Origin: Microbacterium sp. LWH11-1.2
GTDB taxonomy: Bacteria; Actinomycetota; Actinomycetes; Actinomycetales; Microbacteriaceae
Assembly: GCF_038397745.1 (NCBI RefSeq)
Contig: NZ_CP151636.1
Location: 868,001 to 932,000 of the forward strand
DNA length: 64,000 nucleotides
Direction: 5' to 3'
Below the pieces are notes generated by a model that worked only from the letters and a program-made list of their open reading frames with translations, had not been told where the DNA came from and did not search any database. A program made the position numbers and the translations under genes. Shown piece after piece: positions 60,451 through 64,000 of the stretch; position 1 is the stretch's first letter, and every line of letters starts with the position of its first letter.

Positions 60451-61158
60451 ATGACGACCTGGTGGCCCTACGCACGACTCGCAGCATCCGTTCTCGCCGT
60501 CGCGGCGATCGTGGCGCAGCTCGTGCGATCGATCGACGTCGCCCGAAGCGCCGAGACCGAGTACGGGCAGCACATGCCCACCGTGATCGCGAACTTCTTC
60601 AGCTTCTTCACGATCGAGTCCAATGTGCTGGCGGCCGTCGCCCTCGCGATCGGCGGGATCTGGGCGCTGCGCCAGAAGGACGACAAACTGGTCGAACCGC
60701 GGTGGCTCGCGGTGCTGCTCGTCTGCGCCAGCACCTACATGATCGTGACCGGCGTCGTCTACAACACCCTGCTCCGCGGCATCCCCCTGCCCCAGGGTGC
60801 CACGGTCCCCTGGTCCAACGAGGTGCTCCACGTCGTCGTCCCGATCATCATGCTGATCGACGTGCTGGTCGCGCCGCGCCGGCGCGCGCTCGGCTGGGGC
60901 GCCGTGGGGATCGCGGCGATCTTCCCGATCGTGTGGGTCGTCTACACGCTGATCCGCGCGAACCTGGTGATCGCCCCGGCGACCGGGAACCCGTACTGGT
61001 ACCCGTACCCGTTCCTCGACCCGCACCAGCCGGGCGGCTACGGCGCCGTCACCCTCTACGTGCTCCTCATCGCCGCGATCATCATCGGTGCGGCCGCGGG
61101 AGTGGTCTGGATCGGCCGTCGCCGCGGCATCCGTGCTGCGGACATCTCCACGACGTGA
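60451..61158 (+). CDS. Pr6Pr-family membrane protein
   Basis: A 235-residue protein with six transmembrane segments; FFSFFTIESNVLAAVALA, YNTLLRGI, EVLHVVVPIIMLIDVLVAP and NPYWYPYPFLDPHQPGGY are signatures of the actinobacterial Pr6Pr (FAR-17a/AIG1-like) family, of unknown function. GGAGG precedes the ATG and TACAGT (60428-60433) is a probable -10 box. It is divergent from the cyclase receptor. Confidence 0.88.
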   Translation: MTTWWPYARLAASVLAVAAIVAQLVRSIDVARSAETEYGQHMPTVIANFFSFFTIESNVLAAVALAIGGIWALRQKDDKLVEPRWLAVLLVCASTYMIVTGVVYNTLLRGIPLPQGATVPWSNEVLHVVVPIIMLIDVLVAPRRRALGWGAVGIAAIFPIVWVVYTLIRANLVIAPATGNPYWYPYPFLDPHQPGGYGAVTLYVLLIAAIIIGAAAGVVWIGRRRGIRAADISTT

Positions 61159-61189
61159 GCGCCTCCGCGCGACCACGCGAGAGCCGAGA

Positions 61190-62440
61190 TCACCGCGGGC
61201 GGACGGGGAGCGCTTCGATTCGACCGAACTCGCTGCGTCGAGGGATCGATGCGACAGCCTTCGAGAAGACGGCGGCGATCGCCGCGGATGCGAGGATGGC
61301 GAGCGGCACCCCGATCGCCGTCGCATAGTTGGAGTACTCCAAGAGGGTTCCGGCCAACAGAGGTGCCAGCGCCCCGGCGAGCGAACCCAGCAGCGAGGAG
61401 AGCGAGAGGACGCGACCACGGATCTGATCGGGAATGATCAGGGCGAGGAACGATCCCTGCACCGCGTTGAGCGGGATCAACGGCAGAGACGCGACGAATC
61501 CGAGCACCGCGACCACCCAGACGCTCTGCGTGAACAGGAGTCCGCTGAATGCGATGGTGATCGTGCAGATCGAGATCTGCACGATCCTCTGACCGCTGAG
61601 GCGACGAAGCGCCCAGCCCACGACGACGCCCCCGGCAAGCACGCCGGCTCCCTGGAAGGTCTGGATGATACCGATCTGCCAGGCCGGAGTTCCCGCTTCC
61701 TGCTGGCTGAGCACGATCGTCATGCCGCAGGCGCCGAGTGCGAAATTCACCAGCACGACCAGGCCGATGAGGACCCTCGGCTGCCGCCAAGCGGCCAACC
61801 ATCGTGATCCCGAAGACAACGATCTGACCGCCGGAGCATCATCCCGCCGCTCGGGGGCCAGATTCTTCTTGATGGCCAGCGCCGAACCGACCTCCCCCAG
61901 ACGGGTGACGGCCGAGACGATCAACGGCACCGAAGGATGCAGCCCGAACAGAAACCCCGACACCGGGGCAGCGGCAAGACGGATCGCAGCGTCGCGCGAC
62001 TGATTCGCGGCCGATGCGTCGGCCAGAAGCTCCTTCCCGACGATACGAGGAAGTGCGACATCGGTCACGTTGAAGAAGAGCCCGACGACCATTCCCTCGC
62101 ATGCGGCGATGACGAGAAGAGAGCCCGTCGTCAACGTCTCGGTCAGGTACATCCCGGAGAGGACCCCATAGATCCCGAAAGCGCCCAGGCCGGACCAGAT
62201 CATCAGACGACGGGCGTCGAACATGTCCGCCAGAACACCGCCCGGGAGAATCGCCACCGCGCGGGCCGCCGCCGAGACGGTGCCGATGAGCCCCGCCAGG
62301 AAGGCATCAGCCGTGAGGTGGTATCCGAGCAGGGTGAATGCGAAGGAACCGACGCTCAGCCCCACCTGTGTGAGCGTGTCTCCCACGAACCACGCGCGAT
62401 AGTCCCGCACACGCCACACGCTCGGCGTCGCGTTGTTCAC
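61190..62440 (-). CDS. MFS exporter of the RiPP locus (MccC-like position)
   Basis: A 416-residue MFS transporter with twelve transmembrane segments; GGVLADMFDARRLMIWSG is the A-motif loop and NVTDVALPRIVGKELLADAS the next conserved loop of the macrolide-efflux-like group. The GTG start overlaps the stop of the ThiF-like gene by four bases, so both are made together. In microcin C clusters an MFS pump (MccC) exports the modified peptide and gives self-protection; the same role is likely here. Confidence 0.88.
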   Translation of the reverse strand: MNNATPSVWRVRDYRAWFVGDTLTQVGLSVGSFAFTLLGYHLTADAFLAGLIGTVSAAARAVAILPGGVLADMFDARRLMIWSGLGAFGIYGVLSGMYLTETLTTGSLLVIAACEGMVVGLFFNVTDVALPRIVGKELLADASAANQSRDAAIRLAAAPVSGFLFGLHPSVPLIVSAVTRLGEVGSALAIKKNLAPERRDDAPAVRSLSSGSRWLAAWRQPRVLIGLVVLVNFALGACGMTIVLSQQEAGTPAWQIGIIQTFQGAGVLAGGVVVGWALRRLSGQRIVQISICTITIAFSGLLFTQSVWVVAVLGFVASLPLIPLNAVQGSFLALIIPDQIRGRVLSLSSLLGSLAGALAPLLAGTLLEYSNYATAIGVPLAILASAAIAAVFSKAVASIPRRSEFGRIEALPVRPR

Positions 62441-63555
62441 AACGGATCCGCCTCGAAGATGTAATCGAAACGGGGGTCGCCGGATCCGCATGTCGGACAC
62501 CCGGCCTCCGGCTGCCATTCCATGATCGTGCGGAGCTCCCCGGAGATGTAGTTCACCTCGATCTGCTTTCCGACGCCCAACGGTTCGGTGTAGCCCGTCA
62601 TCAGGCGGATCGCCTCATCGACACCGAAGGACGTGAGTCGCTGGATGTGCGGTGAGATCGCGGCGGTCGCGGCATCCCGGGCGGGGGACATCAGCGCGCG
62701 GAATTGGCTGAGGAACCCCTGCGTATTGAGCTCGTCGAAGATGTGGAGACAGTCCAGGCACCCGGAGCGACGAGGGATCACCGAGAAGAAGCGACCACTG
62801 GTGTGCTGGGTGAGCATGACGACAAGCGGGATCCCCAGCTGAACCGCGGCCGAGTTCGCTCGGCGCTGCGCGATGAACCTGGGCTCGTCGATCGCGCAGA
62901 TGAGAGCGTCCGCTCCGCGCGCGACCTGCACGATCTCTTCCGCTGAGGTGATCTTCAGATCGACGACCTCGACGTCGCAATCCGGAGCGAAGCCGCGACA
63001 ATACTGCTCTGCAACCTCGGTCTTCTTCCGGCCGATGTCACCGGTTCGGAACAAGGTCTGTCGATTCAGGTTGCTTTCCTCGACGATGTCGTAGTCGAGG
63101 ATCGTGAGCTTGCGCAATCCCGCAGCCAAGAGCTGGGGAAGGCTGGCGCTCCCGCCGCCCCCGAGCCCGAGCAGCACGACATGGGCATCACCGAGCACGC
63201 GTTGCGCTGAGTTTCCCGCCGCGTGGGAGTTCTCGGCGGCAGCGGCGAAGAAGGTCTGGTTGGCCTCCAGTCGCGCAGGGAGGTCGTCGTAGACCGCCGC
63301 GTCCTCGATCAGACCGCTCTCATCGAGATAGTGAATCCCCTGCCGAACATCGTCGTCGGAAAGATGGGCGACGGCGTGCCGCATCTCACGGACGATCTCC
63401 TCGACCCCTCTGGTTCCATCCAAGAGGGGCAGAAGCACCCGCAGTTCGCCCTGCGGGTCACTGAGTTCCTTGGTGATTCCCTGTTGTGCGCCGATGCGGA
63501 CGACGTCCTGCGCGAGCCAGTAGATGGGAAATGCCCGCTTGATCTGCGGTCGCAT
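62437..63555 (-). CDS. ThiF/MccB-like peptide adenylyltransferase with N-terminal peptide-binding domain
   Basis: A 372-residue E1-like enzyme. Residues 1-95 form a winged-helix, RRE-like domain (LLPLLDGTRGVEEIVREMRH). The adenylation domain has GLGGGGSASL (130-139), LDYDIVEESNLNRQT (153-167) with the catalytic Asp and Arg165, and K178. Zinc cysteines are CLDC (266-269) and CPTC (353-356). This is the architecture of MccB, which adenylates the C-terminus of a short peptide in microcin C, and of PaaA in pantocin. AAGGAG precedes the ATG. Its neighbours are short peptide genes and an MFS pump. Confidence 0.88.
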   Translation of the reverse strand: MRPQIKRAFPIYWLAQDVVRIGAQQGITKELSDPQGELRVLLPLLDGTRGVEEIVREMRHAVAHLSDDDVRQGIHYLDESGLIEDAAVYDDLPARLEANQTFFAAAAENSHAAGNSAQRVLGDAHVVLLGLGGGGSASLPQLLAAGLRKLTILDYDIVEESNLNRQTLFRTGDIGRKKTEVAEQYCRGFAPDCDVEVVDLKITSAEEIVQVARGADALICAIDEPRFIAQRRANSAAVQLGIPLVVMLTQHTSGRFFSVIPRRSGCLDCLHIFDELNTQGFLSQFRALMSPARDAATAAISPHIQRLTSFGVDEAIRLMTGYTEPLGVGKQIEVNYISGELRTIMEWQPEAGCPTCGSGDPRFDYIFEADPL

Positions 63556-63572
63556 GATCTGCTCCTTTCATG

Positions 63573-63611
63573 CTTCGTGCCGCGTCACCGATTCGGCAAC
63601 GCGGCACGAAG
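63573..63611 (-). terminator. Intergenic hairpin between peptide gene and ThiF-like gene
   Basis: CTTCGTGCCGCGT (63573-63585) and ACGCGGCACGAAG (63599-63611) form a perfect 13-bp stem with a 13-base loop in the 72-base gap. It is followed on the coding strand by the ribosome site of the ThiF-like gene, so it is probably a partial terminator or processing stop that yields more peptide mRNA than enzyme mRNA. Confidence 0.75.
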
Positions 63612-63627
63612 ACTGTCGATGGACATC

Positions 63628-63684
63628 TCAGAGGACGCCCCAGCTGATGTCCCGGTCCCGCGTGGGTCGAACGTTGAACGACAT
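63628..63684 (-). CDS. RiPP precursor peptide candidate (18 residues)
   Basis: The product is MSFNVRPTRDRDISWGVL. The ATG has an unusually strong ribosome site (AGGAGAGGAG) five bases before it, much better than chance for so short a frame, and the frame is followed by a hairpin and then the ThiF/MccB-like gene. A longer form of 40 residues in the same frame could start at a GTG at 63750 that overlaps the stop of the upstream small gene and would include KRRGGD before the Met. Known MccA peptides end in Asn; this one ends in Leu, so the chemistry may differ. Confidence 0.65.
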   Translation of the reverse strand: MSFNVRPTRDRDISWGVL

Positions 63685-63746
63685 GTCTCCTCCTCTCCTT
63701 TTTCGATAGGCGGACCACGGCGCGAACACGCCCATGGTCGTCTCGA

Positions 63747-63869
63747 TCACGGCCAGTCGCCTTCGCCTGCCGTCGTGAGAATCGACGACTCGAAGTGAGT
63801 GCCGATCCAGCCTGGTGTCCCGATCGCGATCGCCGCGATAAGGATGATTCTCAACAGCATCTGCTTCAT
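63747..63869 (-). CDS. Small hydrophobic peptide (40 residues) of the RiPP locus
   Basis: The product begins MKQMLLRIILIAAIAIGTPG, a membrane or signal segment, followed by a polar tail (WIGTHFESSILTTAGEGDWP). GGGGGAAG lies just before the ATG. Its stop overlaps a GTG in the frame of the precursor peptide. It could be an immunity or leader peptide, a second precursor, or a translational coupling element. No family is recognised. Confidence 0.5.
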   Translation of the reverse strand: MKQMLLRIILIAAIAIGTPGWIGTHFESSILTTAGEGDWP

Positions 63870-63903
63870 TTCTTCCCCCCGATGTGTGACCACGAAACCG
63901 GAC

Positions 63904-63952
63904 TTGACTAGAATTGTCAAGTACCTGACTAGGCCGGTCATGTGCTTGACTA
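63904..63952. promoter_or_regulatory. Operator array with 21-bp periodicity before the RiPP locus
   Basis: TTGACTA, CTGACTA and TTGACTA begin at 63904, 63925 and 63946, exactly 21 bp apart (two helical turns). The first two are completed into palindromes (TTGAC-N7-GTCAA and TGAC-N7-GTCA). The minus-strand TTGACA at 63920-63915 is a candidate -35 box for the peptide operon and would be covered by the first site. The array sits between the peptide genes and a divergent regulator start. Confidence 0.65.
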
Positions 63953-63972
63953 TCGGAGAAGATCGGAGTCAT

Positions 63973-64000
63973 GTGCTCAGCCCCGGAGAACGCATTCGCG
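63973..64000 (+). CDS. Start of an XRE-type helix-turn-helix regulator, cut off by window edge
   Basis: Only nine complete codons are visible. From the GTG at 63973 they read MLSPGERIR, which is how many XRE-family regulators begin (SPGERIRxLR). GGAG lies a few bases upstream. The gene is divergent from the RiPP operon, with three repeated operators between, so it is probably its regulator. The call rests on a very short stretch. Confidence 0.4.

Follow-up and report, generated by a model that had tools for sequence, protein, structure and literature searches.

A three-gene ThiF-type peptide locus of Microbacterium that resembles ring-forming pathways of Firmicutes rather than microcin C

What does an enzyme that resembles the microcin C adenylyltransferase MccB make from a peptide that does not end in asparagine? 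The question is raised by a small locus of Microbacterium sp. LWH11-1.2, near the end of the stretch of DNA analysed here (the window: 64,000 nucleotides, bases 868001-932000 of a 4.22-Mb contig, NZ_CP151636.1). An earlier note, made from the letters of the window, had described a microcin C-like cluster for a ribosomally synthesised and post-translationally modified peptide (RiPP). The gene arrangement it described is confirmed. On the minus strand, in the order of mccA-mccB-mccC, lie an 18-residue precursor peptide gene (MSFNVRPTRDRDISWGVL; 63628..63684), a long hairpin (63573..63611), a 372-residue ThiF-like enzyme with a RiPP recognition element (RRE), the putative adenylating macrocyclase (62437..63555), and a predicted exporter of the major facilitator superfamily (MFS) with 416 residues (61190..62440). 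The exporter starts with GTG and overlaps the ThiF stop codon by four bases (GTGA), as the note had read it. The ribosome site that it called very strong is a Shine-Dalgarno sequence, GGAGG, four nucleotides 5' of the precursor ATG (63689..63693). The peptide has the tail S-W-G-V-L, with Trp15 at position -4, and its C-terminal residue is indeed Leu18 and not Asn. To us the locus looks like an actinobacterial relative of the ring-forming peptide pathways described in Firmicutes, rather than of microcin C.

The 18-residue frame is a genuine gene under purifying selection. The enzyme is present in 6 of 366 genomes of the genus (E <= 1e-40), the window's own included, and in all six loci a frame of 18-19 residues starts 124-136 bases 5' of it. 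The six precursors are MSFNVRPTRDRDISWGVL, MSFTVRATKERDISWGVL (in two genomes), MSFTVNRVPTDKKISWGII, MAFTVNRVPTDKKISWGII and MAFTVNRVPTDIKVSWGVI; the homologues in the five other loci occupy the equivalent place and end in SWG[VI][LI]. Across four precursor pairs, differences per site are about 3 to 12 times as frequent at synonymous as at non-synonymous sites, on short frames and small counts. Because homologues stand at the same place in all five other enzyme-bearing genomes and are held by purifying selection, the frame is a gene; the conservation beside orthologues on which the earlier note had staked its reading was found in 5/5 cases. An in-frame open reading frame of 114 residues (63972-63628) was rejected as the precursor gene, since the homologues begin at the short ATG. 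The leader probably spans about residues 1-13.

Beyond the genus, 272 of 398 genomes in a family sample match the enzyme at E <= 0.001, mostly through the ThiF domain only among the matches listed, and three pass E <= 1e-40 (the window's genome, G258 and G005). Matches at E <= 1e-35 number 6/396 in the order sample and 3/394 in the class sample. Enzymes of about 40% identity occur in G005, G1047, G1078 and G813 (Devriesea agamarum, P0191), and one on a Niallia plasmid is 37% identical. The peptides encoded 5' of these enzymes are MDVKVERAEEVEAAAWWIIF (G005), MDVEIERAETVEATSWWILF (G1047), MDVEIERAETVEATSWWILL (G1078), MKNVTVRRAEKVEATVWWIIV (G813) and MKKVTVRRATKVEATTWWIII (Niallia). This sister group, here called the WW type, has tails that end in WWII[IVF] or WWIL[FL]. 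The enzyme in these loci is followed by a membrane protein and then by ATP-binding cassette (ABC) transporter genes, which were recognised by Pfam in Niallia and by eye in the others. The membrane protein carries an HExxH motif in three actinobacterial WW-type loci; no Pfam model matched the Niallia one.

Tryptophan stands at position -4 in 11/11 peptides of the clade, six of the SWG type and five of the WW type, which are not all independent (those of G521 and G500 are identical and those of G1047 and G1078 nearly so). It is the sole aromatic side chain common to all of them. At -5, the position of the first Trp in the WW group, the Microbacterium peptides carry Ser, and they lack a second Trp. 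Position -3 is Gly in 6/6 Microbacterium peptides and Ile in the WW type.

The enzyme itself was placed by a tree that comprises 82 ThiF domains (252 columns), with Escherichia coli ThiF and four housekeeping-type rows as outgroup. PaaA is represented there only by the PaaA-like proteins N_Pantoea, P0071 and P0088, and MccB by a fragment. Group A, the Microbacterium enzymes and their relatives, joins group C (Nonomuraea, Chloroflexota and Solirubrobacter) with support 99.9/100, and both then join the WW group B (Niallia-type, in a tree built without EnfB) with support 85.6/85; these pairs, like a third of 94.5/100, are readings of the fused values 99.91, 85.685 and 94.51. The MccB fragment and the PaaA-like proteins fall outside A, B and C, MccB among other RRE-ThiFs, in a tree whose deepest nodes are weak. 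E. coli ThiF and the four housekeeping-type rows split together from all the rest, which separates the enzyme from the ThiF/MoeB clades; a place inside these would have refuted the earlier note. A role as a sulfur-carrier enzyme was rejected on this placement, on the RRE-like N-terminal domain and on scores far below the NCBIfam cut-offs. A defence E1-E2 system was likewise rejected; the matches to PADLOC models (best 1.8e-13) are confined to the ThiF domain.

Among the matches listed, the solved structure nearest to the model fold of the enzyme is MccB, and the N-terminal domain aligns structurally to both MccB and PaaA. In Met1 numbering the ATP residues are R165, Q166 and K178, with D223 for Mg. 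The two zinc CxxC pairs that had been noted are present (C266/C269/C353/C356). By a constant offset of one, F227, R255 and T297 would be the counterparts of Y228, K256 and T298 in the core pocket of IndF, an enzyme discussed below. At these three positions groups A, B and C have F in 53/54 sequences, R in 54/54 and T or S in 54/54 (rows: A 18, B 20, C 16, the last including P0016, P0037, P0040 and P0048). At the R255 and T297 positions the other RRE-ThiFs have R in 5/22 and T in 3/22, MccB has V and P, and E. coli ThiF has Q and T.

Two described pathways come closest. IndF and IndA make an indolylamide RiPP of Streptococcus pneumoniae. IndF, an RRE-ThiF, joins the C-terminal Ile of the core EDTTNWYFI to the indole nitrogen of the Trp at -4 with loss of water; the tail is NWYFI, the W6A substrate is not converted (PMC12150305), and AMPCPP is reported to stop IndF whereas AMPPCP does not. 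The present locus shares the RRE-ThiF, a W-x-x-hydrophobic end with Trp at -4 (11/11), a small cluster with a transporter and, by the same offset, basic and T/S residues at the corresponding pocket positions. It differs in having F and R where IndF has Y228 and K256, an 18-residue peptide instead of a core cleaved from a longer precursor, an MFS protein and no peptidase where the Ind cluster has an M16 peptidase, and in coming from a different phylum. The second pathway is that of enterofaecin. Its precursor EnfA is reported to have 21 residues, a leader motif (V/I)RKA and the end WWIVI, in which both Trp are crucial; R167, K180 and D225 of EnfB are reported to be important, and the product is described as a macrocyclic imide (PMC12250964). 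The locus resembles it in its short precursor (18-19 residues), a V-R or V-N-R stretch in the leader and the Trp at -4, and its enzyme belongs to a sister group by way of the Niallia-type relatives (37% identity). It differs in the SWG in place of WWI, by which only Trp -4 is kept, in lacking ABC transporters, and in that an imide is the published enterofaecin product. The Niallia and G813 peptides MKKVTVRRATKVEATTWWIII and MKNVTVRRAEKVEATVWWIIV, with VRRA in the leader and WWIII or WWIIV at the tail, resemble EnfA closely, and the Microbacterium peptides have one Trp and VRPT, VRAT or VNRV. The tails found here are like those of the enterofaecin group and not like MccA.

We think it probable that the locus encodes a ThiF-type macrocyclase that makes a W15-L18 indolylamide, with loss of water, for export by the MFS protein. 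This linkage is the most likely one because Trp -4 is shared by all 11 peptides and IndF provides a precedent. The N-terminal leader of the precursor would dock on the RRE of the enzyme, which would then adenylate the C-terminal carboxylate of Leu18 at the cost of one ATP. Attack on the acyl-adenylate by the indole nitrogen of Trp15 would close a four-residue W-G-V-L ring; water would be lost and no nucleotide retained. A host peptidase would presumably trim the leader, and the small predicted product would leave through the MFS protein, to serve perhaps as a signal and perhaps as an antibiotic. Adenylation of the C-terminus, by analogy with related enzymes, is the economical choice, since the six final residues of several relatives (AWWIIF, SWWILF, VWWIIV) hold a single carboxylate, that of the C-terminus. 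The choice of the indole as nucleophile follows IndF and the conservation of Trp and is likewise by analogy. A side chain (Asp, Arg or Trp, as in pantocin) had been offered as an alternative target in the earlier note. The Trp fits; a pantocin-like reaction of a side-chain carboxylate is unlikely, as no side chain among the six final residues of the relatives carries one.

An account compatible with the indolylamide is that the cyclised peptide, or a second peptide of 40 residues, serves chiefly as a signal between cells to which a neighbouring regulator responds, so that the island would be a communication device and not an antibiotic factory. The regulator is divergent: it starts with GTG at 63973 on the plus strand, runs to the edge of the window (63973..64000) and on to the equivalent of 65175 (L045 5973-7175), and has 400 residues. 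It combines a helix-turn-helix domain (HTH_3, 9.2e-11) with a helical-repeat domain resembling tetratricopeptide repeats (TPR), although no TPR or RNPP_C model matched the protein. Its AlphaFold2 model, from six sequences, has a mean confidence (pLDDT) of 84.7. This model matches TPR proteins generally; they include PlcR, Rap and ComR, each with a low template-modelling (TM) score. Of the natural prokaryotic proteins PlcR ranks highest, though weakly (rank 5, TMq 0.40). Sequence relatives of the regulator are few (seven matches including itself: P0231 at 61%, P0232 at 37%, the rest weak).

Between the regulator and the precursor gene lies the 40-residue frame MKQMLLRIILIAAIAIGTPGWIGTHFESSILTTAGEGDWP (63747..63869, minus strand), which has a hydrophobic, signal-like start and is a candidate pro-pheromone. 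The divergent intergenic region holds, at 63916..63952 on the minus strand, two copies of an operator-like palindromic repeat, TAGTCARGNACNTGAC (63916-63931 and 63937-63952), at an exact spacing of 21 bp, with a further half-site, TAGTCAAG, beside them. A scan with at most one mismatch gave three matches, all in this region, of which two are a single site read on both strands; shuffled sequences gave a mean of 0.01. The regulator, the repeats and the 40-residue frame suggest peptide-controlled expression by an RRNPP-like pair; such systems are described for Bacillota (PMC10075063). The signalling account gains from these features and from two parallels. On a Macrococcus bovicus plasmid (L060, 4961-8272) an RNPP_C-type regulator stands 5' of a unit of peptide MSLKMETIKNKAALLGGVPG, ThiF and MFS, and half of the Rgg/SHP regulators of Streptococcus thermophilus are reported to adjoin ThiF or radical S-adenosylmethionine enzymes (PMC13361665). 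Among the Microbacterium loci compared, however, the present one alone has the regulator, the repeats and the 40-residue frame (a search of the five others found neither regulator nor frame), and eukaryotic TPR proteins match the regulator model equally well or better. We regard signalling as the main role as possible, on tentative grounds.

The main rival to the indolylamide as a structure is the imide published for enterofaecin. Here the backbone amide nitrogen of Gly16 (-3) would act as the nucleophile and give a macrocyclic imide, or else an external amine would capture the activated C-terminus, by the same enzyme logic. Such an imide is reported for EnfB (PMC12250964), which acts on a precursor motif near those of the sister loci, and the Gly at -3 of all six Microbacterium peptides would suit a backbone attack. 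The residue at -3 varies across the clade, however, and the Trp at -4 does not. Moreover, the enterofaecin structure needs further nuclear magnetic resonance work according to Rajput et al. (PMC12150305). We therefore judge this chemistry unlikely for the SWG peptides, and the indolylamide is retained as the favoured product.

Membership in the microcin C family, the assignment of the earlier note, finds no support. A C-terminal Asn is needed for the succinimide step of the microcin C mechanism. The gene order, the MFS exporter and the model fold recall microcin C7 (MccA/MccB/MccC), but Asn ends 0/11 clade peptides, the enzyme lies on a separate branch from MccB with other core-pocket residues, and none of the open reading frames of the island was recognised as a nucleotide-tailoring gene (the note had seen none for cytidine tailoring); a peptidyl-nucleotide with AMP left on the C-terminus is thus very improbable. 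In pantocin A (PaaA) a Glu-Glu pair of the core becomes a bicycle; MSFNVRPTRDRDISWGVL has no Glu, let alone a pair, and the island no dioxygenase gene, so this type was rejected. The GRC thiolactone type, which has a C-terminal Glu-Cys thiolactone (PMC12150305), was rejected too, as no clade peptide contains Cys.

The genome G592 of the same species has 25 bp in place of a 4062-bp island, which occupies 61130..64000 of the window and extends to the equivalent of 65191. G521 and G500 carry the cluster between the same flanks as here, so the difference may equally be a loss in G592 or a gain in the present genome. Three further genomes have the cluster with different flanks, and when G552 is compared with G638, the flanks are more similar (84-86%) than the cluster itself (67-72%). 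The hairpin between precursor and enzyme has a stem of 18 bp. The corresponding gap folds better than shuffled sequences in 11/11 loci (z -5.1 to -2.1), most weakly in G813, where 5/200 shuffles are equally good, with 1/200 in Niallia. In the six Microbacterium loci it is long and clear, and its sequence differs from locus to locus except between G521 and G500. It is likely an attenuator or an RNA stabiliser that keeps the precursor above the level of the enzyme.

More distant RRE-ThiFs have other peptides beside them. No Trp occurs in the 10 candidate peptides picked at 15 such loci, where some frames set aside as chance do contain Trp; five of the 15 yielded no accepted peptide (Streptomyces NBC_00464 and NBC_01591, Exiguobacterium, Pantoea and Macrococcus armenti). 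One candidate, a 44-residue frame at L070 (G1501) ending in RMSNSTGN, is the sole accepted one that ends in Asn; the ThiF match there contains one TGA. On a Priestia koreensis plasmid (L065), three identical 21-residue frames with strong ribosome sites, MKKIVVRKLATVTVPQLRPGT, lie 5' of another RRE-ThiF and form a different type of precursor array, with multiple copies. Another type, with an RRE-ThiF and an MFS-like protein, is found at L055 (G881) and L059 (Nonomuraea gerenzanensis), where the peptides are short and rich in Lys (MIKKSTKRYSVAGGTQKG, for example). Two ThiF proteins used as queries against viral contigs found no relative; a scan of these contigs with the back-translated IndA tail gave five stretches, with no ThiF-like frame noticed in the next 1.8 kb. 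A genome-contig scan gave one distant locus and the phage records two partial matches. Searches for further group C (Nonomuraea/Chloroflexota) loci gave 1/140, which the tree places elsewhere, and 1/296, which is the window's own genome.

Our literature search found no paper on a Microbacterium ThiF RiPP and no such locus among the titles listed for ThiF-like RiPPs; it may stand among the unnamed network clusters in the supplements of Rajput et al. As a ThiF-kind RiPP the locus is ordinary, and it is unusual as an actinobacterial, three-gene, 18-residue version with a reduced tail. We suggest, speculatively, that W-x-x-(hydrophobic)-COOH tails and the R-T/S-F pocket mark one indolylamide superfamily across Actinomycetota and Bacillota. 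Enterofaecin would belong to it, its imide then being an indolylamide, and the SWG[VI][LI] peptides of Microbacterium would be its smallest and simplest members (18 residues, three genes), here under an RRNPP-like switch. Since of the two tail Trp the SWG peptides retain just the one at -4, they are a natural experiment by which the dispute over the enterofaecin linkage, imide or indolylamide, becomes directly testable, and the precursor is short enough for one synthesis run. A 2026 synthesis paper states that such linkages had previously been reached only by enzymes, not at scale (PMC13053918). It would be useful to have a route to four-residue N-acylindole rings that needs only one enzyme. 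If the favoured chemistry is true, the Actinomycetota too make ribosomal indolylamide macrocycles, which were demonstrated for the first time in 2025, with IndF.

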